64,000 nt of DNA, taken from Loktanella sp. GTDB taxonomy: Bacteria > Pseudomonadota > Alphaproteobacteria > Rhodobacterales > Rhodobacteraceae. The notes beneath the pieces were generated by a model. It was not told where the DNA came from. It saw nothing but the letters and a program-made list of their open reading frames with translations, and made no database searches. Within the stretch, counting starts at the first letter, position 1. Each line of letters begins with the position of its first letter. Positions 13,167 to 35,529 of this stretch are shown here, one piece after another. A program made the position numbers and the translations under genes. The stretch is taken from NCBI GenBank assembly GCA_017390475.1, contig JAFPBO010000036.1, forward strand, positions 29,471 to 93,470, in the 5' to 3' direction.

Positions 13167-13322
13167 ATCAAATTTCCTTTTGGTCAGACTTCGTTCTTGT
13201 ATCGTATCCGGCAGATGCTGGCTGTAGCAAAGATGGCCTTGGTCGAATTTCTGCGGGATGCCAGGTCGTATGAGCCCAGCAGAGCGCCGCTATTGTGGGC
13301 TACTTTTCCAGGCGTCACCATC

Positions 13323-15573: not shown

Positions 15574-15751
15574 GGTACTTTGCTGACGCCGCCAAGGCTC
15601 TATTAAGGATTCATCGTGATGCGCCAGGGCCAGTAGTCATTTGATTAAGCGCAGGTTTGACGGTTACGGTACGGCAGGCGTACTTCAAAAAGAAGCCCTT
15701 TAGTTAGGTGGTCGATTGATATGTAATCACGACATCGGGAGCGTTATCAAC

Positions 15752-16339: not shown

Positions 16340-16357
16340 GGCCAGATCGTACCGGCG

Positions 16358-17145: not shown

Positions 17146-17151
17146 GATTGT

Positions 17152-19253: not shown

Positions 19254-19766
19254 TCAATCATTCTGGACAAGCTGTTCGACCATTATCTGAACGGCTTGGT
19301 CTGCGTAATCCGTCAGCTCGGCCATATCACCGCGGCTAAAGTCTGCCCGTGGGTTGCTATCCAGCAGACAGAAAGCTCCGAGGTGAACGTCGGTAAGGTA
19401 GGTTAAAGGCGCACCGGCGTAAAAGCGGATGAACGGGTCATTTTTCGTGTAGGGATGCTCGTTGAACCGTTCGTCATTGAGGGTGTCCAAAACAACAAAA
19501 ACCCTGTCCTCAAGGATGGTGTAGTTACAGAATGCAAGGTTGCGTGGTGTCTGATCCACATCAATTCCGATCCGGGACTTCAGTACCTGGATATCCTTGG
19601 TCAGCAATGTCACAGCTGCCATTGAGGTCCCAAAATGGGCTTTTGCTTCTATACACAGCTCATCCAAAGCCGGTATCTTGACGGAAGAGGCAAAGCCCGC
19701 TTCAGCAAGCTTTCGTAGTCTTGTATCTTCTCGCGGTCCCAGTGGCGGTATGATATCGTCGTCCAA
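19254..19766 (-). CDS. single GAF-domain sensory protein
   Basis: 170 residues, essentially one GAF domain (about residues 20-165). The pattern AFCNYTILEDRVFVVLDTLNDERF...GAPL...LGAFCLLD matches GAF domains that occur at the N-terminus of diguanylate cyclases and histidine kinases; here it stands alone. The start is a TTG with AAGG nine bases upstream, since an in-frame TAA lies just before it. It precedes the rsbU-like gene by 158 bp on the same strand and is divergent from the GH5 gene, so it may supply a cytoplasmic signal to the partner switch. No chromophore cysteine assignment is possible. Confidence 0.75.
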   Translation of the reverse strand: MDDDIIPPLGPREDTRLRKLAEAGFASSVKIPALDELCIEAKAHFGTSMAAVTLLTKDIQVLKSRIGIDVDQTPRNLAFCNYTILEDRVFVVLDTLNDERFNEHPYTKNDPFIRFYAGAPLTYLTDVHLGAFCLLDSNPRADFSRGDMAELTDYADQAVQIMVEQLVQND

Positions 19767-19899
19767 TATGGTACCTTACCCGTCTGTGCTGCAAAGAAAT
19801 ATTTGGTCAGCCTCTTCAAAGGTTATCGGTCGTTGGTGCGGAATAGTCAAGAAATGGCAGAAGATGTCCTGGAGCCGGAAAGCCGCACATTTTGTCTTG

Positions 19900-20853
19900 A
19901 TGAAGCGGCTATGGTTCAAGTCCCTGCTTGTACTATTTGTGTTGATTTTCAGCCTCAACACACCTGTTTTTGCTGATATGCAAGTAAAGCGGTGCTTGAA
20001 CTTGGGCAACGCACTTGATGCCCCCTTTGAAGGGGCATGGGGCCCAAGCATTACCGAATATGATCTGGAATGGATTGCAGGTGCTGGTTTTGACACGGTC
20101 AGATTGCCCGTACGTTTTGGCGGACACTGGAACGGCATGATCTGGCCTGGTTTTTTGGCCCGCGTCGAACAAGTGATAGGTTGGGCCTATGATAACGATC
20201 TCAAGGTCATCTTGGATTTGCACCATTTTGATGAGCTGATGGCCGACCCCGAGACCTATGGCCCTGTCTTTATTGCAATTTGGACCGAGTTGTCAGAACG
20301 GTTTGCAAGCCACGATGACCGACTGATCTTTGAACTGCTCAATGAGCCTCATGGCGCTGTTACAACGAACCGGGCTGTTGCGCTCTACCAGGATGTTCTG
20401 CCGATCATTCGCGCCAAGCATCCAGAGCGGTGGATCATCCTGGGTGGAGGCAATATGAACAGTCTTGATGAAATGCTTACCCTTCCAGATTTTGGCCCTC
20501 GAATTGCTCTGACATTTCATTACTACGATCCCATACACTTCACCCACCAACAATCAGAATGGACGCAAAGATATTATCCTGCGACCGAATGGGGGCTTGA
20601 GTTTGAGAAAGCGCGTGTCCGTGCTGACATCGCGCGGGCGGGCCAAGCCGACCGACCTATATTTCTGGGGGAGTTCGGGGTGGTACGAGATGCTGACAGT
20701 CTCAGCCGGAACGCTTGGATCGAAACGGTGCGCCGCGCTGCGGAAGAGCATGATATTAGCTGGTGCTATTGGGCTTATGCAGCAGGTTTTGATCTGCGCG
20801 ACTTTGGCGGATATGAATGGTATCCGGGATTATTCAGCGCACTGATGGAGTGA
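19900..20853 (+). CDS. secreted glycoside hydrolase family 5 glucanase
   Basis: 317 residues from the ATG at 19900, which gives a compact signal peptide (MKRLWFKSLLVLFVLIFSL, cleavage after VFA). A start at 19864 is possible. GH5 hallmarks: NLGNALDAP, TVRLPVRF, LDLHHFDEL, acid/base Glu149 in LLNEP, HYY in the substrate cleft and nucleophile Glu258 in FLGEFG. GH5 enzymes cut beta-1,4-glucans, among others. Next to a cellulose-synthase-like gene it probably plays the editing or release role that BcsZ (GH8) plays in classical cellulose operons. Confidence 0.88.
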   Translation: MKRLWFKSLLVLFVLIFSLNTPVFADMQVKRCLNLGNALDAPFEGAWGPSITEYDLEWIAGAGFDTVRLPVRFGGHWNGMIWPGFLARVEQVIGWAYDNDLKVILDLHHFDELMADPETYGPVFIAIWTELSERFASHDDRLIFELLNEPHGAVTTNRAVALYQDVLPIIRAKHPERWIILGGGNMNSLDEMLTLPDFGPRIALTFHYYDPIHFTHQQSEWTQRYYPATEWGLEFEKARVRADIARAGQADRPIFLGEFGVVRDADSLSRNAWIETVRRAAEEHDISWCYWAYAAGFDLRDFGGYEWYPGLFSALME

Positions 20854-21781: not shown

Positions 21782-24244
21782 TTATCGGATTTGCTTCATC
21801 CTAGACGCGTCTGTCAACAATACAGGTGTGGCTGGTTTGCCCGCCGACAACGTCGCATCATCGCTGCCTAGCACAAGAAGTGTATACCGCATGATCCCGG
21901 CGCGGTAGCTTTCGGTCAGTGCATTGCCACCGATCATGTTGTCGAAAAACGGCTGACCAGACAGCCCGGCCCTGTCCGCAAGCGGGCCAATCACGCGCAA
22001 GGCATGGTCACGCCACCGGTTCAACCGCAGCAGGGGTGTCAAGTCCGCAGTGTCCAGATGAACATATCCAAGTGCTTGCGCCTGCAAAATGAGCCCGTCC
22101 CGCGTTGGCACATGACCAAGCCGCCAACCGCGCCGGAAGGCGGCAATCAGGTGTGACTGTGCTTGTGTCAGCCGCGCATCGGGATGTGAAAGCAGATCAT
22201 CGACCACGATCAACACACCGCCGGGGCGGAGATGGCGACGCGCAGCGGTCAGAAATGTGGCCGCATCCGGTGCGTGGACATGGCTTTCGACGGCGATGAC
22301 GAGATCAGCGCCAGATACTTTCATGGGCTGTGTGAAGTCTGCGCAGAGAAATTGACATCGGGCGTCCAACCCGCTGCCTGCGGCAAATTTGCGGGCAAGT
22401 GCTATCTGTTCTGCGCTGATGGTCACGCCGCAAAATGTGGCCTTCGGCCACCGGCGGGCAAGCTGAAAAACCGTGCCCCCAACCCCGCAGCCCAGATCAT
22501 GGACACGCGATGGCGGTTGGCCGATTGCCTGTTCAGCAGCCAGCGCGATCAATGTATTGACATGACCTGCGGCTTGTTCGGCGTTTGTTACCCCTTCAGC
22601 CCAAAGCGGGCGGTGGATCGCCAATGCGGCACCGCTGCCGCCGGTTGCAAGAAACCGCCGCGTGCTGGCATTGTAATAATCCGCAACGGTATTGGCGGCA
22701 CGGGGGCGGTCAAACCACCGATAAAGCAAAGGGGCAACGACCAAGGGCAGCACGATCGGCATTACCAACAGCCCTGACAGCAGCGCATTGGTGCTGGTGC
22801 CAATCAGCGCTTGTGGCAGTGTCACCGCCAGAAGAATGCCCATGCCGACACTGCTTTCCATCCATCCGGCTGGACCCAAACCGCCAGCGCTCTGCCCCGA
22901 CGGGACCCAACCGCTGGTCCGCCCCACCAGGACAGACACCACGAACCCCGTTCGCCGGACCATGCTAATCGGGGCAAACAATGTCGTCAGTGCAAGCTCT
23001 GCCGTGAAGGCCCGCTGCAAGACACGCTTTTGGTTTGCAGAGCGGTACTTTATCCCGCGTGCTCGTAGCCCCGCAAATTTCGGCATCAGTAGCGCCAAAA
23101 GCACCCCGAACAGAGGAATGAGTACGCCCGCCGTTGCATGCACCGCACCTGAACCCGTCAGCACAACCAACGTCAGCCAGATGGGTGCGGACAGATAAGA
23201 TTGAATACCAGCGATCAGATGCATCCGGCTGACCGCATAAAGACCACGCGCACCGACCAGCCGCAGATGCTGCAAATTGCCCTGTGCCCATCGCCGGTCG
23301 CGCCGCAAATGCGCCCCGATGGTTTCGGGCGCATCCTCGAAACTGCCTTTGCCGGACGGGTCGATGACGACCTTCCATCCGGCCCGGCGCAAGAAAGCGG
23401 CCTCGACAAAATCGTGGCTCAGGATAGGTCCGCCGAATGGGGGAGGCCCAGACAAGACCGGCAGCGGCGTCACTTGTTGAAATGCGGTGACACGGATCAG
23501 CGCATTATGGCCCCAATAGTTCCCGTTGTCGCCTGTCAATGCGGCCATGCCACGCTCGAACACAGGGCCGGATATGCGTGCGGACAGGCGCTGCATCTGG
23601 CCAAAACGGGTTTGCGAGGGGCGCAGACGGATGGCCGATTGAATCAATCCCAGCCTGTCATCTGCCGCCACGCGTGCCCGCATGCTGGCAAGCCGCCGGG
23701 CGCTGAAACCGCTGTCGGCATCCAGAACCAACATTGAATCGAACTGCGCACCATGCGCTGTCAGCCAATCGCCTATGTTGCCGTTCTTGCGCCCTGTTGG
23801 CTCTGGCCGGTTGCGATAGATGATACGGCCATCAAGCCGCGCCAGCGCCGCTGCTTCTTGTTGTCGTTCCACTTTGCCTTGGGTATCAGACAGCACAAAC
23901 ACAGTCGCGTGGGGTGTCAGGTTATATGCTTCCTGATCATCGAGGAACTGGCTGATCCGTCGCGCCAACGGTCCTGGGGGTTCGCCGCAGACAAGCCACA
24001 GGACTGCGCATCTATCGGTCAGCTGTTCTGTCGGATCATCCGGCGCCTGCGCCACTGTTGCGCCAATGATCGCAATTCCTGCCGCAGAAATCAGAGTATA
24101 GGTGCTAATGCCGAACAGAACCAGAAGAACGGCCGCCAGTGCAGGCGCGGTGGCGGTGGTATCTAGGCCGAGCCACAGCAGAACAGTCATCAACGCTGTC
24201 AGCAATGCCGATATTACGATATGCGCAAGCGGGGCCTGAAACAT
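21782..24244 (-). CDS. OpgH-like GT2 glycosyltransferase fused to a SAM-dependent methyltransferase
   Basis: 820 residues, two enzymes in one chain. Residues 1-515 form a membrane GT2 of the OpgH/MdoH type: N-terminal helices (8-65), DADSG at 175-179 as the metal motif, LSHDFVEAAFLRRAGW at 275-290 and RRDRRWAQGN at 314-323, then several C-terminal helices to about 510. Residues 520-820 form a class I methyltransferase with HDLGCGVGGT at 582-591, CGVTIS and a second acidic motif (CADF), resembling natural-product and fatty-acid C-methyltransferases. No OpgG partner is present, so glucan synthesis is unlikely. It is the last gene of the ribA-led operon, 12 bp after the reductase gene. Confidence 0.85.
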   Translation of the reverse strand: MFQAPLAHIVISALLTALMTVLLWLGLDTTATAPALAAVLLVLFGISTYTLISAAGIAIIGATVAQAPDDPTEQLTDRCAVLWLVCGEPPGPLARRISQFLDDQEAYNLTPHATVFVLSDTQGKVERQQEAAALARLDGRIIYRNRPEPTGRKNGNIGDWLTAHGAQFDSMLVLDADSGFSARRLASMRARVAADDRLGLIQSAIRLRPSQTRFGQMQRLSARISGPVFERGMAALTGDNGNYWGHNALIRVTAFQQVTPLPVLSGPPPFGGPILSHDFVEAAFLRRAGWKVVIDPSGKGSFEDAPETIGAHLRRDRRWAQGNLQHLRLVGARGLYAVSRMHLIAGIQSYLSAPIWLTLVVLTGSGAVHATAGVLIPLFGVLLALLMPKFAGLRARGIKYRSANQKRVLQRAFTAELALTTLFAPISMVRRTGFVVSVLVGRTSGWVPSGQSAGGLGPAGWMESSVGMGILLAVTLPQALIGTSTNALLSGLLVMPIVLPLVVAPLLYRWFDRPRAANTVADYYNASTRRFLATGGSGAALAIHRPLWAEGVTNAEQAAGHVNTLIALAAEQAIGQPPSRVHDLGCGVGGTVFQLARRWPKATFCGVTISAEQIALARKFAAGSGLDARCQFLCADFTQPMKVSGADLVIAVESHVHAPDAATFLTAARRHLRPGGVLIVVDDLLSHPDARLTQAQSHLIAAFRRGWRLGHVPTRDGLILQAQALGYVHLDTADLTPLLRLNRWRDHALRVIGPLADRAGLSGQPFFDNMIGGNALTESYRAGIMRYTLLVLGSDDATLSAGKPATPVLLTDASRMKQIR

Positions 24245-24256
24245 CGGCGTCTGCGT

Positions 24257-25069
24257 CTAAGTCACGGTATGCGGCGGGATGGTCGCGGCATGGGCGGCTT
24301 CTGTCAGCCCGCAATCAAAAACGACGTCCGTGCCAAGCCCGAACACGCGTGTATCGGGCCGTAGACAATCAGCCAGCCTGGCATGCTGAACATTGCGGGT
24401 CAGCGCGATTGGTCCGCTACCGATGACCAAAGGTGACACTGCGACCTGCAGCCGAACAAGCGTGTCGGCATCAAGGAAATTGGCAATCGTGATCCCGCCG
24501 CCTTCGATGAGAAGGCTATTCAACCCGGCCTCGCGCAAGCCTTGCAAGATCTCCCTCGGGTCGAACTTGCCGTCAATCAGTTGCAGCTGCAACACTTCGA
24601 CATGGGCCGGACGCGGTTGTTTCACAGCCTGAATGATCATGCTGCGTGTGCCATCTTCCCGCAGGATGGGTGCATCATCCGCCAATCGACCTTTGGGATC
24701 AATCACGATCCGCGCCGGGCTTTGGCCTGAGCAAAGCCGGACAGTCAGGCGGGGAAGGTCGTGAAGCGCCGTGCCAATACCGATGACGACACCATCCACC
24801 AAGGCCCGCATCCGGTGCAGATGTGCGTGGCCGTCAGGGCCAGATACGTCGCTTGCATCACCCGCGAGGGTAGCAACCCGGCCATCAAGTGACTGCCCAA
24901 TCTGAGCCACAACTGCCGGTCCCAGATCGCGGCGCGCCAGAGGCGCGTAAAGATCCAGTGCGCCACGCTCGCCTGTCGACCAAGGCCCACCGCAACATGC
25001 GCAGGCTTTGCCCGCACGAATAGCTAGAAGATGGTCCCAGACCCTGTCGGTGACATCCACATTCTGCAT
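24257..25069 (-). CDS. stand-alone RibD-type pyrimidine reductase
   Basis: 270 residues with the dihydrofolate-reductase-like fold of the RibD C-terminal domain: VAQIGQSLDGRVA (53-66), SGPDGHAHLHRMRALVDGVVIG split across 76-97, ARIVIDPKGRL and LLIEGGG. In riboflavin synthesis this fold reduces the ribosyl chain of the pyrimidine phosphate with NADPH. The zinc deaminase domain of RibD (HAE, PCxxC) is missing; instead there is a short N-terminus with Cys23, Cys25 and Cys26 (CACCGG). With a GTP cyclohydrolase II gene in the same operon, a ribityl- or related pyrimidine intermediate is plausible. Confidence 0.85.
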   Translation of the reverse strand: MQNVDVTDRVWDHLLAIRAGKACACCGGPWSTGERGALDLYAPLARRDLGPAVVAQIGQSLDGRVATLAGDASDVSGPDGHAHLHRMRALVDGVVIGIGTALHDLPRLTVRLCSGQSPARIVIDPKGRLADDAPILREDGTRSMIIQAVKQPRPAHVEVLQLQLIDGKFDPREILQGLREAGLNSLLIEGGGITIANFLDADTLVRLQVAVSPLVIGSGPIALTRNVQHARLADCLRPDTRVFGLGTDVVFDCGLTEAAHAATIPPHTVT

Positions 25070-25089
25070 TCATTCACTCCTGTTAGGCA

Positions 25090-25863
25090 TCACTGGTAGC
25101 CGGGCGGCAGGGCCAGAAAATCCCGATGTCCGATGTGGCAATGGCCGTCCCCGACAAGGGCGTGCCGCCGTGCCGCCCATTGCTGTGCGCCCGCGATGCC
25201 CATCTCCGCTGCGGCATTGGCGATACCGGCGCATAATTGTTGTTGCAGCTCAGCCTGATCGGGGCCAAGCACCCAGACGCTGTCAGCCTGGGTCACTGTG
25301 AATCCAGCTTTGGCAAACACATCAGCAGCGCTGCTCGCGCAGTCAGGCCCAAGCGCTGGCCCGAACCCTTTGTCGCCGCGTTGGTGGCGGTTGAATGCTG
25401 CGGTAATCGTTTCGTCGTCATCGTCAGGTGACGTCCATGTCATCACACCGTCGTAGTTCAGCGCGGCATAGAACGCGACCGGTTGTTCTGTAAGACGGGC
25501 AGCCAATCGCGTCAGCCAATCGCGAGAACACAGGTCCAGCAAGGCCGATGCTGTCACAAGGCTCGCCCCCTGCAACGGCAGGGCGGCGAGTGTTCTGAGG
25601 TCAAGTCTATGCAGCGCAACTTCTGGCCCGGCACTCAACGCGGCCTGCGCCAGAAGTGCAGGATCGCTATCAACCAAGCGCCATGCGGCAGTCCCGCCAA
25701 GCACCGGCGCAAAAGCTCGTAACGTCGAACCCGTGCCTGACCCAAGATCAACGATCACTGGCAATGGACCGGCGGCTCTCACCGCTGCGGCCAGCAAGCC
25801 ATCATCGCGTGCGGCAAGGTCTGCCGGTTCACGCAGGGCCAGCCATGAGGCAGTAAACCCCAT
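25090..25863 (-). CDS. class I SAM-dependent methyltransferase
   Basis: 257 residues. Motif I is VDLGSGTGS near residues 38-46, followed by LVDSDPALL (acidic residue that binds the ribose of SAM) and HRLDLRTL. The Asp-rich loop (SPDDDDET) near residue 145 is distinctive. I cannot tell the methyl acceptor. It lies 3 bp after the PTPS homologue gene and 20 bp before the reductase gene, so it belongs to the same transcript and probably modifies the pathway intermediate. Confidence 0.82.
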   Translation of the reverse strand: MGFTASWLALREPADLAARDDGLLAAAVRAAGPLPVIVDLGSGTGSTLRAFAPVLGGTAAWRLVDSDPALLAQAALSAGPEVALHRLDLRTLAALPLQGASLVTASALLDLCSRDWLTRLAARLTEQPVAFYAALNYDGVMTWTSPDDDDETITAAFNRHQRGDKGFGPALGPDCASSAADVFAKAGFTVTQADSVWVLGPDQAELQQQLCAGIANAAAEMGIAGAQQWAARRHALVGDGHCHIGHRDFLALPPGYQ

Positions 25864-25866
25864 TGA

Positions 25867-26262
25867 TCAGATCTCTGCCTCGAACCAGCCGCGCGCCAGA
25901 TGGCTTTCATGCAGCGTGATTCGCAAACGCTTGACGCGACCTGCATCCTTCAGTTCGCCCGCCCGGACCTTTTCGGCCAAAGTCCGGAAGACATGGCCGG
26001 ACAAAAATTCAGTTGTCGTGAAAATGCCCTTGAACTGGCTTTCATCATCAAGGTTTTTATAGCGCAATGGTTCCAGAACCTGTGCCAATGCGTCAATCGC
26101 CAAACCGATATCAACAACCAGCCCGTGTTCATCGATGTCATTAGCGAAAAACGCCGCATCCACGGTGAAGGTGGCACCATGCACGCCCTGTGCCGGCCCA
26201 AAAAGTGGCGACGGGAAAGAGTGAGCAATCATGATGTGGTCACGAACTTCTACAGCGTACAT
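25867..26262 (-). CDS. 6-pyruvoyltetrahydropterin synthase / QueD homologue with altered active site
   Basis: 131 residues of the T-fold PTPS family. The alignable landmarks are IAHSF (His14, first zinc ligand), VHGATF at 27-32 (His28 is the second ligand; the third, normally the second His of HGH, is Ala30), VVDIGLAIDALAQV in place of the W.IDF.. helix, and HES with Glu119. The catalytic Cys four residues before His28 is Ala24, and the DHH of the catalytic dyad region reads LRYKNLDD. Normal PTPS or 6-carboxytetrahydropterin synthase activity is therefore doubtful. It may have a new activity or bind a pterin. Confidence 0.8.
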   Translation of the reverse strand: MYAVEVRDHIMIAHSFPSPLFGPAQGVHGATFTVDAAFFANDIDEHGLVVDIGLAIDALAQVLEPLRYKNLDDESQFKGIFTTTEFLSGHVFRTLAEKVRAGELKDAGRVKRLRITLHESHLARGWFEAEI

Positions 26263-26305
26263 TTGGGGTCCTTTAGATTACTGGGGAGGGGACAGAGAGC
26301 ATCGA

Positions 26306-27250
26306 TCAATATCTGATCCGGTGACACAGCGTATCAGGGTCGGCGAGGATGTCGGCATAGTGGTCCGGCAGATGTGCGAACGCAGTTTCGCCCGAAATCA
26401 AGGCGTCAAGGCGGTCGTCACACAGCAGATCCAACGCTTTTGCCATGCGTCTGGCATAAGACCAGCGCGGCAGGCGGTCAGGCGGCAGATGACCCACCTG
26501 CGATGCGATCAGGCGCAGACGGCGGCTGTGAAACGCACCGCCCAATGCGACAGGGATGGTTTTGTCGCCATACCAGCTTGCCTCGACAATCGTGGCATTG
26601 TTCCCGGCAATCGACAGGCCAAGCGCCAGTCCCGCAGGATTTGCGCTGGCATGGATCACGACATCGCAATCGTGCTGGGCGGTATCCGGTGCAGCAAAGC
26701 CAACCCCCAAAGTCGCTGCCAGTTTTGCCCGCGCAGGGTTGATGTCAATCAGAACCACCTCTGCGCCCGGCATCCGTGCAGCAAGATACCCGACAAGCGC
26801 GCCGACGACACCCGCGCCGATCACGGCGATCCTGTCGCCTGCGCCTGCGCCGCTGTCCCAAAGGATGTTCAGTGCAGTTTCCATGTTGGCCCCAAGAACA
26901 GCCCGTTGCGCAGGCAAGCCATCGGGAAGGATATTGAGGTTTTCCTGCGCCAGCCGGAAATGGGTCTGATGTGGAAACAGGCTGAACACATGCTGCCCCG
27001 CCAGCGGACCGTCCTGCACTTCGCCGACGTTGCAATATCCGTATTTCACCGGAAACGGGAACGCGCCTTCCATGTTGGGGCCGGTCATCCTGTCATATTC
27101 TGATACCGGCACGCTACCTTCGGATACCAACCGTTCTGTGCCGCGGCTGATCGCCGAAAACAGCGTCGTGACAGGCACACCGGTGCTGGTCAGCGCGGGC
27201 CGGATTTCAACCTGTCCGGGTCCCACGAACCAGAGTGCCTCTGCGCTCAT
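26306..27250 (-). CDS. medium-chain dehydrogenase/reductase, BchC-like
   Basis: 314 residues, MDR superfamily. The dinucleotide motif VIGAGVVGALVG lies near residues 143-154, followed by LIDINPARA (acidic residue favouring NAD). The N-terminal SAISRGTERLVSEG resembles the SxISxGTERL segment of the bacteriochlorophyllide dehydrogenase BchC and its relatives; the catalytic zinc cysteine of classical alcohol dehydrogenases and the four structural-zinc cysteines are not seen. It overlaps the ribA stop (ATGA). Likely role: oxidation or reduction of a side-chain carbon on the pathway product. Confidence 0.82.
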   Translation of the reverse strand: MSAEALWFVGPGQVEIRPALTSTGVPVTTLFSAISRGTERLVSEGSVPVSEYDRMTGPNMEGAFPFPVKYGYCNVGEVQDGPLAGQHVFSLFPHQTHFRLAQENLNILPDGLPAQRAVLGANMETALNILWDSGAGAGDRIAVIGAGVVGALVGYLAARMPGAEVVLIDINPARAKLAATLGVGFAAPDTAQHDCDVVIHASANPAGLALGLSIAGNNATIVEASWYGDKTIPVALGGAFHSRRLRLIASQVGHLPPDRLPRWSYARRMAKALDLLCDDRLDALISGETAFAHLPDHYADILADPDTLCHRIRY

Positions 27251-28383
27251 GTCAACAGGTGTCCCGACTTTACCGCCTTGGTTGTCAGATAGCGGGTATT
27301 CTGCACGGTCTTGCCGACCTGCAATGGTACTCTTTGCGTCACATCAATGCCTTGCGCCTTCAGTATCGCCATTTTGGCGGGGTTGTTCGTCAGCAGCCGA
27401 ACGGCGCCGATCCCCAGTTGTTTCAAAATCGCTGCGCCATTGCGGAAATCACGTTCATCGTCATTGAAACCAAGGTGGTTATTGGCGTCGACCGTGTCAA
27501 AACCCTGATCCTGCAACGCGTAGGCCCGCATCTTGTTGGCCATACCGATCCCGCGACCTTCCTGATTCAGATACAGCAATACACCGCCGCCTGCCGCCGC
27601 CATTGTCGTACAGGTCGTCTGCAGTTGTGCGCCACAATCACATTTCAGGCTGCCCAGAACGTCACCAGTGAAACAGGCCGAATGAAGCCGCGTCAGAACG
27701 GGTTGGGACAGGTCAGGGCTGCCGATCTCGATGGCGTAATGTTCGATGCCACCATCGTCTGGCCGGAAAACGTGCACGCGCCCAGCGGCATGAGCCGACA
27801 TCGGCAGGCTCGCCGAGGAGACCAACGCCTGAAAACGCTCTGCCGAAAGTTCAGCGACAACGTCCGTGGCTTCGACGAGACATAGCTCATTGTCGCGGGC
27901 AAAGGCATGGCCATCGTCGATAGCAACGACCAGCGCAGCGGGTAGAAGCTGCGCTGATTTGGCCAGTGCGATGGCGGCGTCATGTATCGGATCGGATGAT
28001 CTCGGATCAGCAGCGTGTTTGGGCAACTCGGACGGTTGGGCAGGGTCCGCCAGGGAAATGAGCCAATCCAGCCCGGCATCTTGCGGCAGCGTCATCGCCA
28101 CCACAGAACTGCCGGTCTTGTGCCCTTCGACGGCAAGTGCATCTGCCCGGTGCCGCGTCAGCAGCAATTGCGCTTGCTGCGCGCCCCCTGTCAGCGCTGT
28201 GAAACGCGCATCCGTCAGCGTTTCAACCGCGACCATCGCGACAAATGCGCCTTGATACGACAAAATGACAGGTACGCCGATCCTGACGTCGCCTCTGGCC
28301 CGCATGACGCGTTCCATGCTGCACGGCGAAATCGCAGAAGCCAGCGGGTCTTGGGTTCCAAAGGCAGGTTTCAGATTATTCAT
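27247..28383 (-). CDS. ribA: GTP cyclohydrolase II with N-terminal extension
   Basis: 378 residues from the ATG at 28383, which has GGGAG at a good distance; a longer reading frame adds 21 residues without support. Residues ~205-378 are a complete GTP cyclohydrolase II: the zinc ligands Cys237, Cys248 and Cys250 in CFTGDVLGSLKCDC, QEGRGIGMANK at 274-284 and LTNNP. It should convert GTP to the 2,5-diamino-6-ribosylamino pyrimidinone phosphate. The first ~190 residues lack the RibB dihydroxybutanone phosphate synthase motifs. First gene of an operon with a reductase, PTPS homologue, MDR, methyltransferases and a glycosyltransferase, so probably not the housekeeping riboflavin copy. Confidence 0.88.
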   Translation of the reverse strand: MNNLKPAFGTQDPLASAISPCSMERVMRARGDVRIGVPVILSYQGAFVAMVAVETLTDARFTALTGGAQQAQLLLTRHRADALAVEGHKTGSSVVAMTLPQDAGLDWLISLADPAQPSELPKHAADPRSSDPIHDAAIALAKSAQLLPAALVVAIDDGHAFARDNELCLVEATDVVAELSAERFQALVSSASLPMSAHAAGRVHVFRPDDGGIEHYAIEIGSPDLSQPVLTRLHSACFTGDVLGSLKCDCGAQLQTTCTTMAAAGGGVLLYLNQEGRGIGMANKMRAYALQDQGFDTVDANNHLGFNDDERDFRNGAAILKQLGIGAVRLLTNNPAKMAILKAQGIDVTQRVPLQVGKTVQNTRYLTTKAVKSGHLLT

Positions 28384-28547
28384 GATGCTCCCAGAAAAAC
28401 GTCCCAAGGAGTTTAGCGCGCCACTGCGAAGGGCAAGCTGCCACATGTCTTTGCGGGCATTGTTCGATGCACGATAGCGATTTTATTCGCCACACATGAA
28501 ATTTGCTTTAGATATAACGCGCTGCGTCGTTTTGGCGCTTTTGTTAA
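28384..28547. promoter_or_regulatory. divergent intergenic region of the pteridine/pyrimidine-like cluster
   Basis: 164 bases between the ribA-led operon (minus) and the FkbM methyltransferase gene (plus); it must hold both promoters. It becomes AT-rich toward the FkbM side (GCTTTAGATATAACGC). I see no FMN riboswitch features such as the conserved AGGGGC...GG core, so riboflavin-type control is not supported here. Confidence 0.4.
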
Positions 28548-29312
28548 GTGAATAAGATTGGAATACCGGTTTTGACCATTGGAAAGTGGCTTGGATTTTT
28601 CCGCTCGGTTGTGATTTATCACAATCCTGTGAATTCGGCCCCGATACGCAAGTTTTACCGCAATCTTCTGAAACCGGGTGACCTTGCTTTTGATGTGGGT
28701 GCCCATGTTGGCACGCGCGCCCGCGCAATGCGGGCCGCTGGCGCACGGGTTGTTGCGCTTGAACCGCAGGCACCATTTTCGACCTATCTGCGTCTGACAT
28801 TGCCGCGCGATGTCCGACTGGTCGAAGCGGCCGCAGGGGGCAGCCAGTCAACCGCGCAGATGGCCGTATCATCGCGTCATCCCACCGTGTCGTCGCTCAA
28901 GCCCGGATTTGTGGCGGCGGCGGGGGCCGCACCCGGTTTTGAAATGGTGAAATGGGACACGGTGCAGAATGTGCAGGTGACAACGCTGGACGCGCTCATC
29001 GCAGAGGAAGGCGTGCCGCGCTACATCAAGATCGATGTCGAGGGTTTCGAGCTTGATGTCCTGGCTGGCCTGTCGCAGCCCGTTGCGATTATCTCGGTGG
29101 AATATCTGCCGGGATTGCCAGATCTGACAAACGCGGTGATCGACCGGTTACTGGAACTGGGGCCGTATCAGTTCAACCCCGTGCGCGGTGAGGAAGGTGA
29201 ATTCCTATGGGAACAATGGGCTGACGCCGCGACTGCCAGACACTGGCTTGCCAGCCTTTCCGCTGACGACAAATCAGGTGACCTTTACGCCATGTTGCCG
29301 GATTCCGCCTGA
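28548..29312 (+). CDS. FkbM-family SAM-dependent methyltransferase
   Basis: 254 residues from a GTG start; no nearby ATG is available. Motif I is FDVGAHVGTRARAMRAAG (about 48-65), followed by VALEPQ, then TTLDALI and the FkbM hallmark YIKIDVEGFELDVLAGL (about 160-176). FkbM enzymes O-methylate sugars and polyketides. Divergent from the ribA operon; its last 28 bases overlap the end of the convergent phosphatase gene. Together with the glycosyltransferases this suggests a methylated sugar on the product, an inference. Confidence 0.82.
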   Translation: MNKIGIPVLTIGKWLGFFRSVVIYHNPVNSAPIRKFYRNLLKPGDLAFDVGAHVGTRARAMRAAGARVVALEPQAPFSTYLRLTLPRDVRLVEAAAGGSQSTAQMAVSSRHPTVSSLKPGFVAAAGAAPGFEMVKWDTVQNVQVTTLDALIAEEGVPRYIKIDVEGFELDVLAGLSQPVAIISVEYLPGLPDLTNAVIDRLLELGPYQFNPVRGEEGEFLWEQWADAATARHWLASLSADDKSGDLYAMLPDSA

Positions 29313-30094
29313 CCGCGCAGCGCTTCGGTAAAGGCAGCGAACAAAGGTTCTGGCGCGGCCAGAACCGTGCCGGAAACCTCTGGCTGATCGTCCTTGTCAA
29401 ACGCGGTGACATGCGCCCCTGCCTCGCGCAGGATCACAAGGCCAGCGGCTATATCCCACTGCTGCAGGCGGCGTTCCCAGAACCCGTCCAGCCGCCCCGC
29501 CGCCACATAGGCCAGATCAAGCGCGGCTGCCCCCATACGGCGCACACCGGCGCAATGTGGCATCAGATTGGCGATATCAGCGGCATGTGCGTCGATGTCC
29601 TTCATGCCACCAAACGGGATACCCGTACCAAACAGCGCATCCGACAGCTGTGTCGTATCGGATACCACAATCGCCGATCCGTTCAGAAAAGCACCCCCGC
29701 CAAGGATCGCTGTGAATGTTTCACCCTTCAGAGGGTCATGGATTACGCCCAAGCGGCGGGTTCCGTCTACTTCAAGTGCGATGGAAATGGCCCAATGCGG
29801 GATGCCGCGCAGAAAATTTGTCGTGCCGTCCAAAGGATCAACGATCCAGCGCCGGGACGATTGGTGAGAGGCCGGCGTTTCCTCGCCAAGCCAGCCATCA
29901 TCTGGACGCGCGGTCAGCAGCAGGTCGCGCAGGCACATTTCTGACGCAACATCAGCCTGCGACACGAAATCACCTGCGCGTTTGTTGCTGACGGTCAGCG
30001 ATGTTTTGTCGTGCCAATACCGGGTCAGAATGTCGCCAGCGGCCTGCGCCGCCGCAACTGCAAGATCCATATCGGGCAAATCCTGCGCATTCAT
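29285..30094 (-). CDS. inositol-monophosphatase-family phosphatase
   Basis: 269 residues with every metal motif of the family: WLGEET (Glu), WIVDPLDGTTNF (Asp-Asp) near residues 83-94, and LQQWDIAAG (Asp) near residue 211. Members hydrolyse inositol phosphates, adenosine bisphosphate or other small phosphate esters. It starts inside the end of the GT4 gene (ATGA overlap), so the two are co-expressed. In a pathway from GTP it could remove the 5'-phosphate of a ribosyl- or ribitylamino pyrimidine, a step that riboflavin synthesis also needs, but this is a proposal only. Confidence 0.85.
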   Translation of the reverse strand: MNAQDLPDMDLAVAAAQAAGDILTRYWHDKTSLTVSNKRAGDFVSQADVASEMCLRDLLLTARPDDGWLGEETPASHQSSRRWIVDPLDGTTNFLRGIPHWAISIALEVDGTRRLGVIHDPLKGETFTAILGGGAFLNGSAIVVSDTTQLSDALFGTGIPFGGMKDIDAHAADIANLMPHCAGVRRMGAAALDLAYVAAGRLDGFWERRLQQWDIAAGLVILREAGAHVTAFDKDDQPEVSGTVLAAPEPLFAAFTEALRGQAESGNMA

Positions 30095-31155
30095 ATCGCC
30101 ACCTGTGCTGCATCAATAGCCTGCATAGCGACGCGTGCTGTGTCTTGCCAGGTTGGCAATGCCTTGCCAGCCACTCGCGCTGCATTGTGCATTTCGGTGG
30201 CAATGGCTTTGTCGGTCAAAACCTTTGCCATGGCAGCGCCAAATGCCGCAGGATCATCACAAGCGGTCAGCAGACCGGCAGCTTGCGGCACCGTGTCCGG
30301 CACCGCCCCCGTGGCACAGGACACGATCGGCAAGCCGTGAAGCAATGCTTCGTTGAATACCATGCCGTAGCCTTCGTATCGCGTCGCCAGCGCAAACAAG
30401 CTGGCCTGTTGATAGAGTGTTAATAGCGTGTCCGAGTCCACACGCCCCGCTAAATGAACACGCCCGGTCAGCCCCAGCTGGTCGATCCGGTCTTGCAAGG
30501 CGACATCATACCCGTCTTGCCAAAGGCTACCGACAATGCAGGCATTCCATTCCAGCTGTGCAATCCGGTCAAGCGCATCAATCAACACATCATGGCCTTT
30601 GCGCGGATGCAAAATCCCGACCGACAGGATCAACGGCACAGCCGGGGGCGGTACACTGGCTGCATTCTGCGGCAGTTGCGCGATACCGGGCAGGGCGATG
30701 TGGATACGGTCTGCGCCAACCCCGTAATGTTTGATCAGCGTTGCTTTGGTATGGGGGCTTGGGACCAGGACCTGCGCGGCATAGCGCAGATTTTCACGTT
30801 CATTCAGCAACAGCTGCGCCTGCTGATCCTTTGGCAACGCACTTTCGAAAGCAAGTGGATGATGCACTAGCGCGATGATCCGGGCATTGATCTTTGCCAC
30901 CTCTTGCGGCGGCAGCGCGCCAAAGGCCAGACCGTCGACAATGACTGTCGTTGCTGCTGGCAAGGTCTGCAATTGTTCGCAGGCAAGCAACATATCGGCC
31001 GCTGGTGGAAAGGGGAAACCGTCTGGCAACGTCACCAGTGTCACGTCCCGTCCTGCGTCGCGCAATTCCTGAAACAGGCGACGGTCGTAGATATAACCTC
31101 CTGTCAGGGTCGCTATGTCGCCCGGAACGGCCAAGGCAATCGGTGGCTGCGTCAT
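30091..31155 (-). CDS. GT4-family glycosyltransferase
   Basis: 354 residues from the ATG at 31155 (a longer frame adds 22 residues lacking resemblance to the family). The GT-B fold shows GGYIYDRRLFQEL near the N-terminus, ILSVGILHPRKGHDVLIDAL as the start of the donor domain and the E-x7-E motif in YEGYGMVFNEALLHGLPIV. No membrane segments, so it acts in the cytosol on a soluble or membrane-face acceptor. First gene of a two-gene unit with the phosphatase. It could glycosylate the product of the ribA-led operon; pterin glycosides are known in bacteria. Confidence 0.85.
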   Translation of the reverse strand: MTQPPIALAVPGDIATLTGGYIYDRRLFQELRDAGRDVTLVTLPDGFPFPPAADMLLACEQLQTLPAATTVIVDGLAFGALPPQEVAKINARIIALVHHPLAFESALPKDQQAQLLLNERENLRYAAQVLVPSPHTKATLIKHYGVGADRIHIALPGIAQLPQNAASVPPPAVPLILSVGILHPRKGHDVLIDALDRIAQLEWNACIVGSLWQDGYDVALQDRIDQLGLTGRVHLAGRVDSDTLLTLYQQASLFALATRYEGYGMVFNEALLHGLPIVSCATGAVPDTVPQAAGLLTACDDPAAFGAAMAKVLTDKAIATEMHNAARVAGKALPTWQDTARVAMQAIDAAQVAI

Positions 31156-31620: not shown

Positions 31621-31670
31621 AAACTTGCGCATCAACGCTGGTGCCGTCTAGCTTTTCCAACGACACAGTG

Positions 31671-33299
31671 ATGACCCTGACGGACAGAACAATCATGCCA
31701 CAATCTGCGCAAAATCTATCAGCGACACAGCACGTGCATGACTTGCTTGTGATCGGTGGCGGCATCAATGGCTGCGGCATTGCGCGCGATGCTGTGGGGC
31801 GTGGGTTGTCGGTGGTGCTGGCGGAAAAGGGCGATTTGGCGGGGGCGACGTCATCCTCGTCAACCAAGCTGTTTCATGGTGGTCTGCGCTATCTGGAATA
31901 TTTCGAATTCCGGCTGGTCCGCGAGGCATTGATCGAACGCGAGACACTGCTGCGCGCGATGCCGCACATTTCCTGGCCGATGCGTTTTGTGCTGCCTTAT
32001 CATAAGGATATGCGGTTCGACAGCGACACGCCAACGTCGCGCTTGCTGGGGATTTTCATGCCCTGGATGAAGGGGCGCAGACCAGCCTGGCTGATCCGAC
32101 TGGGCCTGTTCCTTTACGATAATCTGGGTGGTCGCAAGATTCTGCCCGGCACGGCGACGCTCGCGCTGGATGGCAATGAAGGCACACCGCTGCATGATCG
32201 TTTTGCCAAAGCCTATGAATATTCCGACGCATGGGTCGAGGATTCACGCCTTGTCGTGCTGAACGCCCGCGATGCCGAGGCGCGCGGTGCGACGATCATG
32301 ACCAGGTCAGAGGTTGCGTCGGCCGCTGTCGTCGATGGCATCTGGCATGCCACGATCCGGACCGATAACGGCGAAAAGACAATTGCAGCGAAGATGCTGG
32401 TCAATGCCGCAGGTCCTTGGGTCGGTGATATCATTCACGGCAAGCTGCGCCTGAACAGCCGCGAGGATGTGCGGCTGGTGCGTGGCAGCCATATCGTGAC
32501 GCGCAAGCTTTATGATCACGATAAATGCTATTTCTTCCAAGGTACCGACGGACGGATCATTTTCGCCATTCCCTATGAGCAGGATTTCACCCTGATCGGC
32601 ACGACCGATGCGGAACATGATGATCCTAACGTCAAACCCGTCTGCACGGATGAAGAACGGGATTACTTGTGCAATTTCGCCAGCCAGTATTTCAAACAAC
32701 CCGTCACGACAGATGATATCGTCTGGACCTACTCCGGTGTGCGTCCGTTGTATGATGATGGTGCCAGTTCCGCGACGGCGGCGACCCGTGACTACACCTT
32801 GAAGGTTGATAAATCTGCCGGTGCGCCGGTGCTCAATATCTTTGGTGGCAAGATCACGACCTATCGGCGGCTGGCGGAATCAGCGCTCGAAAAGATCGGT
32901 GCGGTGCTGCCGCTGGACAAAGGCAAATGGACCGCAGGGGTGGCCTTGCCGGGGGGAGATTTTCCACATGACGGTGTGGTTGCACTCGTGGAGGGATTGC
33001 AGCGTGACTACCCGTTTCTGTCCGATTTCTGGGCGCGCCGCTTGGTCCGCGCTTATGGGACAGAAGGCCGCGCTATTCTGGGCGACGCCAAAACCGCTGC
33101 CGATCTGGGCCGCGATTTCGGATCGACCCTGACCGAGGCCGAGGTCAACTGGCTGATCACCCGCGAATATGCCCGCAGTGCCGAGGATATTCTTTGGCGA
33201 CGGTCAAAACTCGGGCTGCGGCTCGACAAGGATCAGGTGGCGGTTCTGGAGGAGTGGATCGCCAACCATGCAAAGGAAGTCATCCGCGCCGCTGAATAG
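31671..33299 (+). CDS. glpD: glycerol-3-phosphate dehydrogenase (FAD, respiratory)
   Basis: Oxidises glycerol 3-phosphate to dihydroxyacetone phosphate at the inner membrane (EC 1.1.5.3). 542 residues from the ATG at 31671; an ATG at 31695 is equally plausible and a GTG at 31641 less so. The FAD motif DLLVIGGGINGCGIARDAVGRG is split around residues 25-46, followed by TSSSSTKLFHGGLRYLE, NAAGPWVGD, YFFQGTDGRIIFAIPYE, TTDAEH and GGKITTYR, all GlpD landmarks. First gene of the glycerol operon, behind the AAACGAA repeats; glpS follows after 24 bp. Confidence 0.94.
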   Translation: MTLTDRTIMPQSAQNLSATQHVHDLLVIGGGINGCGIARDAVGRGLSVVLAEKGDLAGATSSSSTKLFHGGLRYLEYFEFRLVREALIERETLLRAMPHISWPMRFVLPYHKDMRFDSDTPTSRLLGIFMPWMKGRRPAWLIRLGLFLYDNLGGRKILPGTATLALDGNEGTPLHDRFAKAYEYSDAWVEDSRLVVLNARDAEARGATIMTRSEVASAAVVDGIWHATIRTDNGEKTIAAKMLVNAAGPWVGDIIHGKLRLNSREDVRLVRGSHIVTRKLYDHDKCYFFQGTDGRIIFAIPYEQDFTLIGTTDAEHDDPNVKPVCTDEERDYLCNFASQYFKQPVTTDDIVWTYSGVRPLYDDGASSATAATRDYTLKVDKSAGAPVLNIFGGKITTYRRLAESALEKIGAVLPLDKGKWTAGVALPGGDFPHDGVVALVEGLQRDYPFLSDFWARRLVRAYGTEGRAILGDAKTAADLGRDFGSTLTEAEVNWLITREYARSAEDILWRRSKLGLRLDKDQVAVLEEWIANHAKEVIRAAE

Positions 33300-33323
33300 C
33301 AGCGCAATTTGGGAGGAGAAAAT

Positions 33324-34412
33324 ATGTCGCTCGTCTTGGACGGGGTCAGTAAGGTGGTGGATGGTCAAAACCATATCTACCCGACTGACCTGACGCTGGA
33401 ACGTGGCACGATGAACGTGCTGTTGGGGCCGACCCTGTCGGGTAAAACCACGCTGATGCGCCTGATGGCCGGGCTGGATGTGCCTGCAACCGGGCGTATC
33501 CTGTGGGAAGATCGCGATGTCACCGGTATGCGCGTACAGGACCGCAAGGTCGCGATGGTTTACCAGCAATTCATCAATTACCCGTCGATGAGCGTCTATG
33601 ACAATATCGCCTCTCCCTTGAAACTGATAGGGCTGAACCGGGCCGAGATTGACCGCAAAGTCCGCGAAACCGCTGATCTGATGCAATTGGGTTCGATGCT
33701 GGACCGCAAGCCGCTGGAATTGTCGGGCGGCCAGCAGCAACGCTGTGCACTGGCGCGCGCCTTGGTCAAAGATGCGGGGCTGGTGTTGCTGGACGAACCG
33801 CTGGCGAACCTTGATTATAAACTGCGCGAGGAATTGCGCGCCGAAATCCCCCGGATATTCGAAGAATCCGGTGCGATTTTCGTCTACGCCACGACAGAAC
33901 CGGAAGAAGCCTTGTTGCTGGGCGGCAATGTCGCGACCATGTGGGAAGGCAAAATCACCCAATTCGGCCCGACCCCATCGGTTTATCGCCAGCCCAAAGA
34001 TGCGACCACCGCACGGGTGTTTTCCGACCCGCCGATGAACTTCACCAAGATCGTCAAAGCAGGCAACGGGATCAGTTTTGGCGCGGGCCAGACGGCGGCC
34101 GCGACCGGCGCTTTTGCACAATTGCCCGATGGCACCTATCGCGCGGGTTTCCGGCCTGACCATTTGCACCTGACAGCGCAGGCGCGGGACGGTCTGCAAT
34201 TCGCCTGTACCTTGCGGGTGACGGAAATCACCGGGTCGGAAACCTTTGTGCATCTGGATCATGCCGGCGACCGCTGGGTCGGGTTGATCCATGGTGTGCA
34301 TCATCTGGAATTTGGGACGCCGATCCATGTTTGGCTGGACGCAGCGCATGTCTACGTCTTTTCCGAAACCGGCGAACTGATCGCCCCCGCGTCCTATGCG
34401 GCAGCGGCCTGA
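33324..34412 (+). CDS. glpS: glycerol ABC transporter ATPase GlpS
   Basis: 362 residues; start fixed by GGGAGGAG just upstream. MalK-like architecture: Walker A GPTLSGKT at 35-42, signature LSGGQ at 133-137, Walker B LVLLDEP at 153-159. The switch region reads VYATTEPEEA, so the catalytic H-loop histidine is Thr191. With GlpT it forms the ATPase pair of the glycerol importer known from Rhizobium leguminosarum (GlpSTPQUV). The missing histidine means that its own ATP site is probably slow or inactive, while its intact signature serves GlpT. Confidence 0.9.
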   Translation: MSLVLDGVSKVVDGQNHIYPTDLTLERGTMNVLLGPTLSGKTTLMRLMAGLDVPATGRILWEDRDVTGMRVQDRKVAMVYQQFINYPSMSVYDNIASPLKLIGLNRAEIDRKVRETADLMQLGSMLDRKPLELSGGQQQRCALARALVKDAGLVLLDEPLANLDYKLREELRAEIPRIFEESGAIFVYATTEPEEALLLGGNVATMWEGKITQFGPTPSVYRQPKDATTARVFSDPPMNFTKIVKAGNGISFGAGQTAAATGAFAQLPDGTYRAGFRPDHLHLTAQARDGLQFACTLRVTEITGSETFVHLDHAGDRWVGLIHGVHHLEFGTPIHVWLDAAHVYVFSETGELIAPASYAAAA

Positions 34413-34422
34413 GGGGGGACAA

Positions 34423-35529
34423 ATGGCACAGATCACACTTGATAACCTGGCACATTCCTATTTTCCCAATCCGCAGTCAGAGGATGATTTTGCCCTCAAA
34501 CAGCTCGACCATGTCTGGAAAGATGGCGAGGCTTATGCCCTGTTGGGCGCGTCCGGCTGTGGGAAATCAACGCTGCTCAACATTATCTCGGGCCTTGTGG
34601 TGCCGTCGCGCGGGCGCATCCTGTTCGGCGATCAGGATGTCACCCATCAGGACACGGTGGCGCGCAATATCGCGCAGGTATTCCAGTTCCCGGTCGTCTA
34701 CGACACGATGACCGTGGGCGATAACCTGGCCTTTCCTTTGCGTAATCGTGGCATGGACCCTGCCTATATCGCAGAGCGCGTACAAAAGATCGCAGCCATG
34801 ATCGGCATGGAGGATCTGCTGAAACGCAAGGCGCGCGGGCTGACCGCAGACGCCAAGCAAAAGATCAGCCTTGGCCGCGGTATGGTCCGTGAGGATGTGA
34901 ATGCGATCCTGTTCGACGAACCGCTGACGGTCATCGACCCGCATATGAAATGGGAATTGCGCACGCAATTGAAGGCGCTGCACAACGAATTCGGTCATAC
35001 GATGATCTACGTCACCCATGACCAGACAGAGGCGCTGACCTTTGCCGACAAGGTCGTGGTGATGCATGACGGCCGCGTCGTGCAGCTTGGCACGCCGGAA
35101 GAATTGTTCGACACCCCCGAACATACATTCGTCGGCTATTTCATCGGATCACCCGGCATGAACCTGATCGAGGCAGAGGTCGCAGGCGATACCGCCCATT
35201 GTGCAGGTCATGCGATTGATCTTGGCGGGCATTACCGCGCACCCAAAGGCCGGGTGCAGATTGGCATTCGCCCCGAGTTCGTGACGCTATCGGACGGCAA
35301 TCATGGTCTGCCCGTCACCATCAAACGGGTAGAGGATGTCGGCCGTCACCAGATCCTGCGCGCCGAATTCGCGGGCAAGCCGGTGAACGCGATCCTGCCC
35401 GAAGGGTTCAGCATCCCCGCCGGTGCCAACCGTCTGCATTTCGCCCCTGAACGGATCAATGTCTATGCCGATGACTGGCGGGTGGGGCCTTTGCAGGCTG
35501 TCGCCACCACAGAACGAAAGGCCGTGTGA
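34423..35529 (+). CDS. glpT: glycerol ABC transporter ATPase GlpT
   Basis: 368 residues from the ATG at 34423, behind GAGGGGGG. Walker A GASGCGKST (42-50), Walker B ILFDEP (162-167) and the switch YVTHDQTEA with His199 are intact. The ABC signature, normally LSGGQ, reads LTADAKQ at 140-146 and the D-loop reads LTVIDPHMK. It complements GlpS, which has the intact signature but no switch histidine. Not related to the glycerol-3-phosphate antiporter also called GlpT in enterobacteria. Overlaps the next gene (TGATG). Confidence 0.9.
   Translation: MAQITLDNLAHSYFPNPQSEDDFALKQLDHVWKDGEAYALLGASGCGKSTLLNIISGLVVPSRGRILFGDQDVTHQDTVARNIAQVFQFPVVYDTMTVGDNLAFPLRNRGMDPAYIAERVQKIAAMIGMEDLLKRKARGLTADAKQKISLGRGMVREDVNAILFDEPLTVIDPHMKWELRTQLKALHNEFGHTMIYVTHDQTEALTFADKVVVMHDGRVVQLGTPEELFDTPEHTFVGYFIGSPGMNLIEAEVAGDTAHCAGHAIDLGGHYRAPKGRVQIGIRPEFVTLSDGNHGLPVTIKRVEDVGRHQILRAEFAGKPVNAILPEGFSIPAGANRLHFAPERINVYADDWRVGPLQAVATTERKAV

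Follow-up and report, generated by a model that had tools for sequence, protein, structure and literature searches.

What compound is made by a cluster of nine genes that combines a GTP cyclohydrolase II with methyltransferases, glycosyltransferases, and a reductase of the RibD type is the question raised by a stretch of Loktanella sp. DNA (assembly GCA_017390475.1, contig JAFPBO010000036.1, positions 29,471 to 93,470 of the forward strand; here called the window, the whole 64,000 nucleotides that were analyzed, to which coordinates refer unless a locus is named). An earlier note on this DNA had proposed a pathway to a GTP-derived pteridine or pyrimidine that is methylated, dephosphorylated, and glycosylated. 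Our analysis leaves about an even chance that the cluster accounts for the de novo part of a broadly distributed pathway, whose building block, a GTP-derived pyrimidine or pterin that some strains make and others import, receives a sugar and is fixed to a membrane lipid or another envelope carrier; both the nature of the product and its attachment to the envelope are what we infer from the enzymes encoded.

Six of the nine genes form a minus-strand run from 28383 to 21782, which opens with the GTP cyclohydrolase II paralogue RibA2 (28383 to 27247; PF00925, 2e-56; an alternative in-frame ATG is possible at 28446). RibA2 overlaps by 4 bp a dehydrogenase of the medium-chain dehydrogenase/reductase (MDR) fold that is distantly BchC-like, termed BchCl (27250 to 26306), and there follow, after gaps of 43, 3, 20, and 12 bp, a PTPS homologue of the SCO6650 type, PTPSL (26262 to 25867; PF01242, 2.4e-18), the class I S-adenosylmethionine-dependent core methyltransferase MT (25863 to 25090), a RibD_C/Rib7-type reductase without a deaminase domain, RibDr (25069 to 24257; PF01872, 4.8e-32), and an OpgH/MdoH-like membrane glycosyltransferase, GT2, fused to a C-terminal methyltransferase domain at approximately residues 580 to 680 (24244 to 21782). 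Flanking this run are an FkbM-family methyltransferase on the plus strand (28548 to 29312; PF05050, 8.9e-16), a convergent inositol-monophosphatase-family phosphatase, IMPase, on the minus strand (30094 to 29285; PF00459, 1.2e-61), and the minus-strand glycosyltransferase GT4 (31221 to 30091; PF00534, 1.8e-27), which overlaps IMPase by 4 bp. The run agrees in all coordinates, strands, and families with what the earlier note had described, and all three of the flanking genes it named are present. Its label of "BchC-like" for the dehydrogenase is apt only in part, as the likeness to BchC is distant (39.3 bits to the BchC equivalog TIGR01202, against a cutoff of 291.25); RefSeq plasmid records label homologues as "zinc-binding alcohol dehydrogenase." AlphaFold2 (AF2) models of BchCl (pLDDT 93.9; MDR fold matches that include polyol dehydrogenases, TarJ, and also reductases of other kinds) and MT (pLDDT 96.5; class I methyltransferase folds) are confident but generic, pointing to no substrate. 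The GT2 fusion scores 413.6 bits against the MdoH model NF003962 (cutoff, 328) and falls below the cutoffs of the other MdoH models shown.

This gene set is conserved far beyond the window strain and the Rhodobacterales. We chose loci by BchCl (the best 80 of at least 583 confirmed genome-contig stretches, a sample that leans towards the window's own type) and by PTPSL (397 sampled genomes of the phylum Pseudomonadota), and counted genes by tblastn of the window proteins because codon-blind selection of open reading frames was confused by shadow frames in GC-rich genomes; the samples overlap in part, with loci L021 and L080 looking like the same contig. The best 80 BchCl-chosen loci contain PTPSL in 79 cases, MT in 76, GT4 in 69, RibDr in 68, RibA2 in 46, FkbM in 32, GT2 in 28, and IMPase in 22, and the 31 PTPSL-chosen loci other than the window's contain BchCl (31), GT4 (30), MT (29), RibDr (27), RibA2 (13), and IMPase (1). 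Synteny outside the window strain, whose absence the earlier note had said would speak against its proposal, is confirmed in both samples. GT4 belongs to the core, RibA2 is optional (46 of 80 and 13 of 31 loci), and IMPase is an accessory gene that is rare outside the Rhodobacterales (22 of 80 and 1 of 31), so that the dephosphorylation step in the earlier proposal is not general. Pairwise distances of the core proteins are correlated (Spearman 0.78 for PTPSL and MT and 0.76 for BchCl and MT, with no phylogenetic control).

The distribution is nonetheless patchy. PTPSL occurs in 32 of the 397 phylum genomes, the window's included, and in none of the three congeners of the window strain that were sampled; BchCl occurs in 13 of 149 genomes of the family, and the loci of the 12 other than the window's contain PTPSL and MT (10 each), GT4 and GT2 (9 each), RibDr (7), and a CDP-alcohol phosphotransferase, CDP-OH (3). 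Locus L024 holds BchCl and GT2 only. Plasmids carry the set as well: PLSDB has 20 with PTPSL, and among the nine examined a Palleronia plasmid has all of the nine genes except GT2, eight in total, arranged as in the window, a Streptomyces fungicidicus plasmid encodes CDP-OH, the dehydrogenase, PTPSL, GT4, MT, an LPG_synthase_TM protein (LPG_TM), a creatininase, and RibA and yields no match to RibD, and a Microbacterium plasmid encodes CDP-OH, the dehydrogenase, PTPSL, GT4, MT, LPG_TM, and RibD and yields no match to RibA. Two further Streptomyces plasmids (L139 and L146) present a second context for PTPSL, without the core and near genes for metallo-beta-lactamase (MBL)-fold, cupin, and BTAD-regulator proteins. 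Core genes also lie on contigs of metagenome-assembled genomes labeled Aquiluna, Marinimicrobia, and Natrialbaceae (L042, L064, L106, and L107), through either transfer or misbinning.

The first enzyme has an intact site. Aligned to 2bz0, RibA2 keeps the residues corresponding to the zinc-binding Cys54, Cys65, and Cys67 and to Tyr105 of Escherichia coli, and among the 65 loci with a cluster RibA match, the three cysteines are kept in all and the tyrosine in 64. The window genome, which is 99.99% complete, contains three genes with a GCH2 domain, namely, that of the cluster, a stand-alone RibA on contig C19 (PF00925) in which the zinc cysteines are present, and a RibBA on contig C54 that lacks them in its GCH2 half, adjoins ribH and nusB, and shares its contig with a bifunctional RibD carrying deaminase and reductase domains. 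The earlier note held that the cluster is not a riboflavin operon and that its ribA should not be the only GTP cyclohydrolase II gene in the genome, and both statements stand, with no family match to a deaminase, a lumazine synthase, or a riboflavin synthase among the nine cluster proteins. At least two GCH2-domain matches are present in 27 of the 31 other PTPSL genomes and one in the remaining 4; the cluster RibA is thus often a spare copy, although not one present in every locus, and where it is missing the precursor may come from the housekeeping enzyme.

The PTPS homologue departs most clearly from its relatives. PTPSL is a member of the PTPS fold family (66.7 bits to PF01242; cutoff, 22.4), and a profile match of 3.2e-52 places it in the same subfamily as SCO6650 of Streptomyces coelicolor, already solved as 3d7j. 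We read its residues over 130 loci from the overlapping samples, identifying the sites by reference to rat PTPS. The position of the catalytic cysteine and that of the third zinc histidine are alanine in 130 of 130 loci (Ala24 and Ala30), the other two zinc histidines are kept in 130 of 130, the place of the Asp-His pair is mostly held by Asn, Arg, or Lys together with Tyr, and Glu119, the pterin-anchoring glutamate, is kept in all 127 loci that have a residue there. The passages of PMC5041015 that deal with these enzymes give the PTPS and QueD catalytic motifs as CxxxHGH or CxxxxxHGH and call the function of the PTPS-V subfamily unclear.

The reductase offers a clue to the intermediate. The best solved relatives of RibDr in a profile search, 6p8c and 2azn, are annotated as ribosylaminopyrimidinone phosphate reductases, and the position of E. 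coli RibD Lys152 is Gln in 102 of 105 loci, His in 2, Arg in 1, and never Lys. In the sections of PMC3631187 on this residue, the lysine (152/151) selects the deaminated substrate, its place is taken by Thr in fungi and Asn in archaea, and a Thr-to-Lys change switched the substrate preference of the yeast enzyme. Because RibDr has Gln here and lacks a deaminase domain, its product is expected to retain the 2-amino group, as the pathway intermediate probably does. Conserved synteny, a spare RibA, a RibD reductase without a deaminase, and a converted PTPS active site together give good support to the part of the earlier proposal that concerns a GTP-derived pathway distinct from that of riboflavin.

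The history of the cluster RibAs also bears on the entry point. A single origin of these proteins was rejected by an approximately unbiased (AU) test (P = 3e-7; 81-row tree, 63 versus 18 rows, leaving out L140 and L175 to L178). An 86-row tree groups 20 Rhodobacterales cluster RibAs with the housekeeping RibAs of the window genome and of genome G430 (support, 95/99) and sets the cluster RibAs of the Halomonadaceae and allies apart from gammaproteobacterial housekeeping RibAs. This failure of the cluster RibAs to form a single clade is compatible with the activity having been recruited more than once, with gene conversion as an alternative, and such recruitment would argue for the GTP cyclohydrolase II product as the entry point of the pathway.

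If the nine genes make a building block, where does it go? Elsewhere, the recurrent neighbors of core loci are CDP-OH, a sulfatase-family membrane protein, LPG_TM, cytochrome b561, and creatininase, found in 41, 34, 34, 31, and 5 of the best 80 BchCl loci, respectively; 30 of the 31 cytochrome b561 genes lie less than 600 bp from another cluster gene, the sulfatase-family protein is fused to CDP-OH in the frame of L017, and CDP-OH is present in 52 of the 54 LPG_TM loci among 132 loci scanned. The gene upstream of BchCl, in 131 loci, is RibA2 in 34 (21 codirectional, 13 divergent), and 34 others have GT2 there and 30 have CDP-OH, in each case divergently oriented. In the window genome, a module of these genes lies outside the window on contig C37 (L212), with cytochrome b561 at 8649 to 9230, CDP-OH at 9284 to 10084, the sulfatase-family gene at approximately 10063 to 11703, and LPG_TM at 15924 to 16886; a UgpC/sugar-type ATP-binding cassette (ABC) transporter occupies 11700 to 15873 between the last two, and sets 55 to 73% identical to it occur in L218, L220, and L227. 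The motif DGxxARx8GxxxDxxxD, the catalytic motif of the family, is intact in all 63 loci with a CDP-OH homologue and was also read in the C37 copy. Matches of this copy to PgsA, PIP synthase, and archaetidylinositol-phosphate synthase are weak and all far below the curated cutoffs, and a sequence search of the PDB returned one weak match for it and none for the sulfatase-family protein. Near the module in six loci (L222, L223, L228, L229, L218, and L233) there is also an MdoG-like periplasmic glucan protein gene, whose neighbor in the first four of these loci is the OpgH-like GT2.

The C37 module is likely the second half of the pathway. All six family genomes with a dehydrogenase at least 57% identical to the window's (its own genome included) have CDP-OH and LPG_TM, and the seven other BchCl-bearing family genomes, with 50 to 56% identity and GT2 beside the dehydrogenase, have no CDP-OH and one weak LPG_TM match (Fisher P = 6e-4 for CDP-OH, on a grouping made afterwards that ignores phylogeny, with some of the 13 genomes only 76 to 84% complete). 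In three of the six, the window's own, G063, and G118, the module lies on a contig other than that of the core, and within the view that contig ends allow, GT4 is seen in one stretch and not in the other, with the core in the window genome and with the module in G063 and G118. Distances of CDP-OH, LPG_TM, and GT2 follow those of the core (Spearman 0.66 to 0.75, likewise with no phylogenetic control). The earlier note, which inferred a glycosylated product, could not take account of the module, as it lies outside the window; the module points to a product attached to the envelope rather than to a free glycoside.

The module also occurs without the core, and there it keeps different company. CDP-OH is present in 14 family genomes that lack the core dehydrogenase, and in 9 of 12 such core-less neighborhoods (L230 and L231, cut by contig ends, were left out) a THI5/NMT1-type ABC importer is encoded beside or near the module, adjoined in seven of the nine importer loci by a GT4 46 to 52% identical to that of the window; the remaining three have a sugar-type ABC transporter as in the window genome. 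The THI5/NMT1-type importer is found in none of the 132 loci chosen by core genes. Importer orthologues (at least 69% identity) are present in 13 of the 149 family genomes, comprising 11 of 20 with CDP-OH versus 2 of 129 without (P = 8e-10), and the other 12 of the 25 importer-matched genomes, core-bearing G118 among them, have only paralogues of 28 to 38% identity. Among the CDP-OH genomes, a binding-protein frame free of stops occurs in none of the 6 with the core versus 10 of the 14 without it (P = 0.011). The single sampled family genome with both core and importer, G063, carries a stop within its binding-protein gene, and its permease gene is broken (L232, 11446 to 14281), damage that may be an assembly error, and the adjacent GT4, CDP-OH, sulfatase-family, and LPG_TM genes have no stops in their matched parts. 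In G091, a separate contig carries the importer and GT4 next to a sulfatase-family gene (L236); G011 (L234) has the importer, GT4, FkbM, cytochrome b561, and GT2 without CDP-OH, the same alternation of tails that the core loci display; and in G125 the importer stands alone (L235). Core-less relatives apparently import the building block instead of making it. The binding protein matches PF09084 (1.8e-36), and its nearest solved relatives are 4nmy (6.5e-8) and 3ix1 (8.4e-8), the latter a formylaminopyrimidine-binding protein, a relationship that fits a pyrimidine-type ligand without proving it.

Several observations weigh against a made-or-imported, envelope-attached product. The class of importer ligand is uncertain because proteins that bind sulfonate or nitrate also belong to the NMT1/THI5 binding-protein family and the importer ATPase scores best against nitrate and sulfonate models, and the C37 module of the window genome itself carries the sugar-type transporter, not the THI5 type. 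The groupings behind the small P values were made after the data had been seen and ignore phylogeny. RibA2 distances track those of the core poorly (Spearman 0.24 to 0.55, again uncontrolled for phylogeny), and in the 12 BchCl-bearing family loci besides the window's, with PTPSL in 10, RibA2 is found in only 2. The LPG_TM gene of G074, one of the six genomes with the more similar dehydrogenase, has a stop inside. A CDP-OH match is present anywhere in only 17 of the 31 PTPSL genomes, so the module is not universal, and because CDP-OH and LPG_TM are absent from many core loci (present in only 41 and 34 of the best 80) and CDP-OH is found in the 14 core-less genomes, the link between core and module is only statistical.

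A rival reading is a freely secreted pteridine or pyrimidine glycoside, acting perhaps as a sunscreen, signal, or antibiotic, with the membrane genes belonging to a separate envelope-glycan pathway that happens to share neighbors. In its favor, besides the 14 of 149 family genomes with CDP-OH and no core, 16 of the best 80 loci have no CDP-OH, GT2, or cytochrome b561 within the examined stretch, an ABC exporter-type gene occurs in L079 and other members of its linkage group in L061 and L108, and an RND efflux system lies near the Methylosinus locus. We nevertheless regard this alternative as doubtful, since CDP-OH is found in all six family genomes with the more similar dehydrogenase, in three of them on another contig, homologues of the core GT4 lie inside the loci that join importer and module, and importer orthologues are nearly restricted to module-bearing genomes. 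An intracellular pterin cofactor or redox carrier made by RibA2 and RibDr, whose side chain GT4, MT, and CDP-OH would tailor in the manner of methanopterin or F420, is in keeping with the frequency of cytochrome b561 close to cluster genes and with the patchy but wide distribution that includes Streptomyces and Microbacterium; no cofactor-dependent partner enzyme was recognized among 20 neighbor proteins scanned, and the LPG_TM and sulfatase-family proteins point outward, which makes this reading unlikely. Auxiliary supply of riboflavin or queuosine is highly improbable, for although RibA and RibD_C families are present, RefSeq plasmid records name the set's enzymes as queuosine, riboflavin, and alcohol-dehydrogenase genes (with the PTPSL homologue called "6-carboxytetrahydropterin synthase"), and PTPSL is the sole PF01242 match in the window genome, it scores only 24 bits against the QueD model (cutoff, 89), its catalytic cysteine and third zinc histidine are gone in every locus read, the cluster has no deaminase domain, and housekeeping RibA, RibBA, RibH, and bifunctional RibD are encoded elsewhere.

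Taking the envelope-attached product as the working model, a sequence of steps can be proposed. RibA-family enzymes open the ring of GTP, Rib7-type reductases reduce ribosylaminopyrimidines, and CDP-OH-family enzymes transfer phosphoalcohols. RibA2, whose site is intact, would thus open GTP to yield 2,5-diamino-6-ribosylamino-4(3H)-pyrimidinone 5'-phosphate, which RibDr, judging from its residues, would reduce to the ribityl form while it is still aminated; PTPSL, without its third zinc ligand and catalytic triad, the MDR dehydrogenase, and MT would then, in some order, produce a 2-amino-4-oxo pyrimidine or pterin building block, and GT4 would glycosylate it. The C37 module may attach the glycoside to a lipid, move it outward, and decorate it; in other loci the OpgH-like GT2 is what lies next to the dehydrogenase, and core-less relatives would take up the building block through the THI5/NMT1-type importer, whose genes accompany those for GT4 and the module. 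Cytochrome b561 raises the speculative possibility that the product is redox active at the membrane. A more specific version, which we put forward tentatively, is a lipid-anchored envelope pterin in at least two phyla, in which a 2-amino pyrimidine or pterin, made or imported, is glycosylated, coupled by CDP-OH, placed in the outer leaflet, and redox active through cytochrome b561, with the PTPS scaffold turned to zinc-free chemistry.

Among known systems, the closest for PTPSL is the Streptomyces protein SCO6650, which shares its subfamily. The S. fungicidicus plasmid RibA has Met in place of Tyr105, the only exception among the 65 cluster RibAs (L140, 16479 to 17138), and lies beside a creatininase gene, while the 64 others keep Tyr; SCO6655, a RibA with Met, reportedly stops at the formylated pyrimidine. 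Creatininase as the general partner of a formyl-releasing RibA was considered and rejected, since the 13 creatininase loci have a RibA with Tyr in 10 cases, with Met in 1, and no RibA match in 2, so that the pairing holds for one Streptomyces plasmid only. The archaeal and fungal branch of riboflavin synthesis, in which RibA is followed by Rib7 reduction before deamination, is similar in that the reductase is expected to act on an aminated pyrimidine and that the best solved relatives of RibDr are annotated as such reductases; it differs in that the cluster has no deaminase, lumazine synthase, or riboflavin synthase and that RibDr has Gln at the selecting position rather than Asn (archaea) or Thr (fungi). 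Clusters for toxoflavin-type 7-azapteridines likewise start from a GTP cyclohydrolase II dedicated to the pathway and contain a methyltransferase gene, but they have a deaminase-type RibD, in contrast to the PTPSL, dehydrogenase, GT4, and lipid-type enzymes found here. Pathways for lipids of the phosphatidylinositol mannoside (PIM) and archaetidylinositol types combine a CDP-alcohol phosphotransferase with a GT4, and the intact CDP-OH motif and weak matches to PgsA, PIP synthase, and archaetidylinositol-phosphate synthase are points of likeness, although none of the three matches comes near its curated cutoff. Searches of the open PMC library aimed at the gene set showed no title or abstract that describes it, and we found no product assigned to it; subscription journals have probably noticed it before, especially in work on SCO6650 and SCO6655. 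The likely link of the membrane module to the core is new in this analysis.

Other genes of the window surround the cluster. Adjoining GT4, positions 31641 to 36401 hold a gene for a GlpD-like flavin adenine dinucleotide (FAD) oxidoreductase (DAO and alpha-glycerophosphate-oxidase C-terminal domains) and then ABC transporter genes, likely a glycerol operon. On the other side, a GAF-domain protein gene and a glycoside hydrolase family 5 (GH5) cellulase-family gene lie beside the cluster (19254 to 20853), and a partner-switching set of an HATPase_c_2 kinase, a STAS protein, and a SpoIIE-type phosphatase is found at 16358 to 19095.

If our reading is correct, one compound would be made by core-bearing strains and taken up by importer-bearing strains, in both cases ending in the envelope. 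The pathway would also explain a PTPS subfamily in which the catalytic site is gone and yet the ligand-anchoring residues are fixed. The split loci, together with the apparent replacement of synthesis by an importer, make the question of the product testable.

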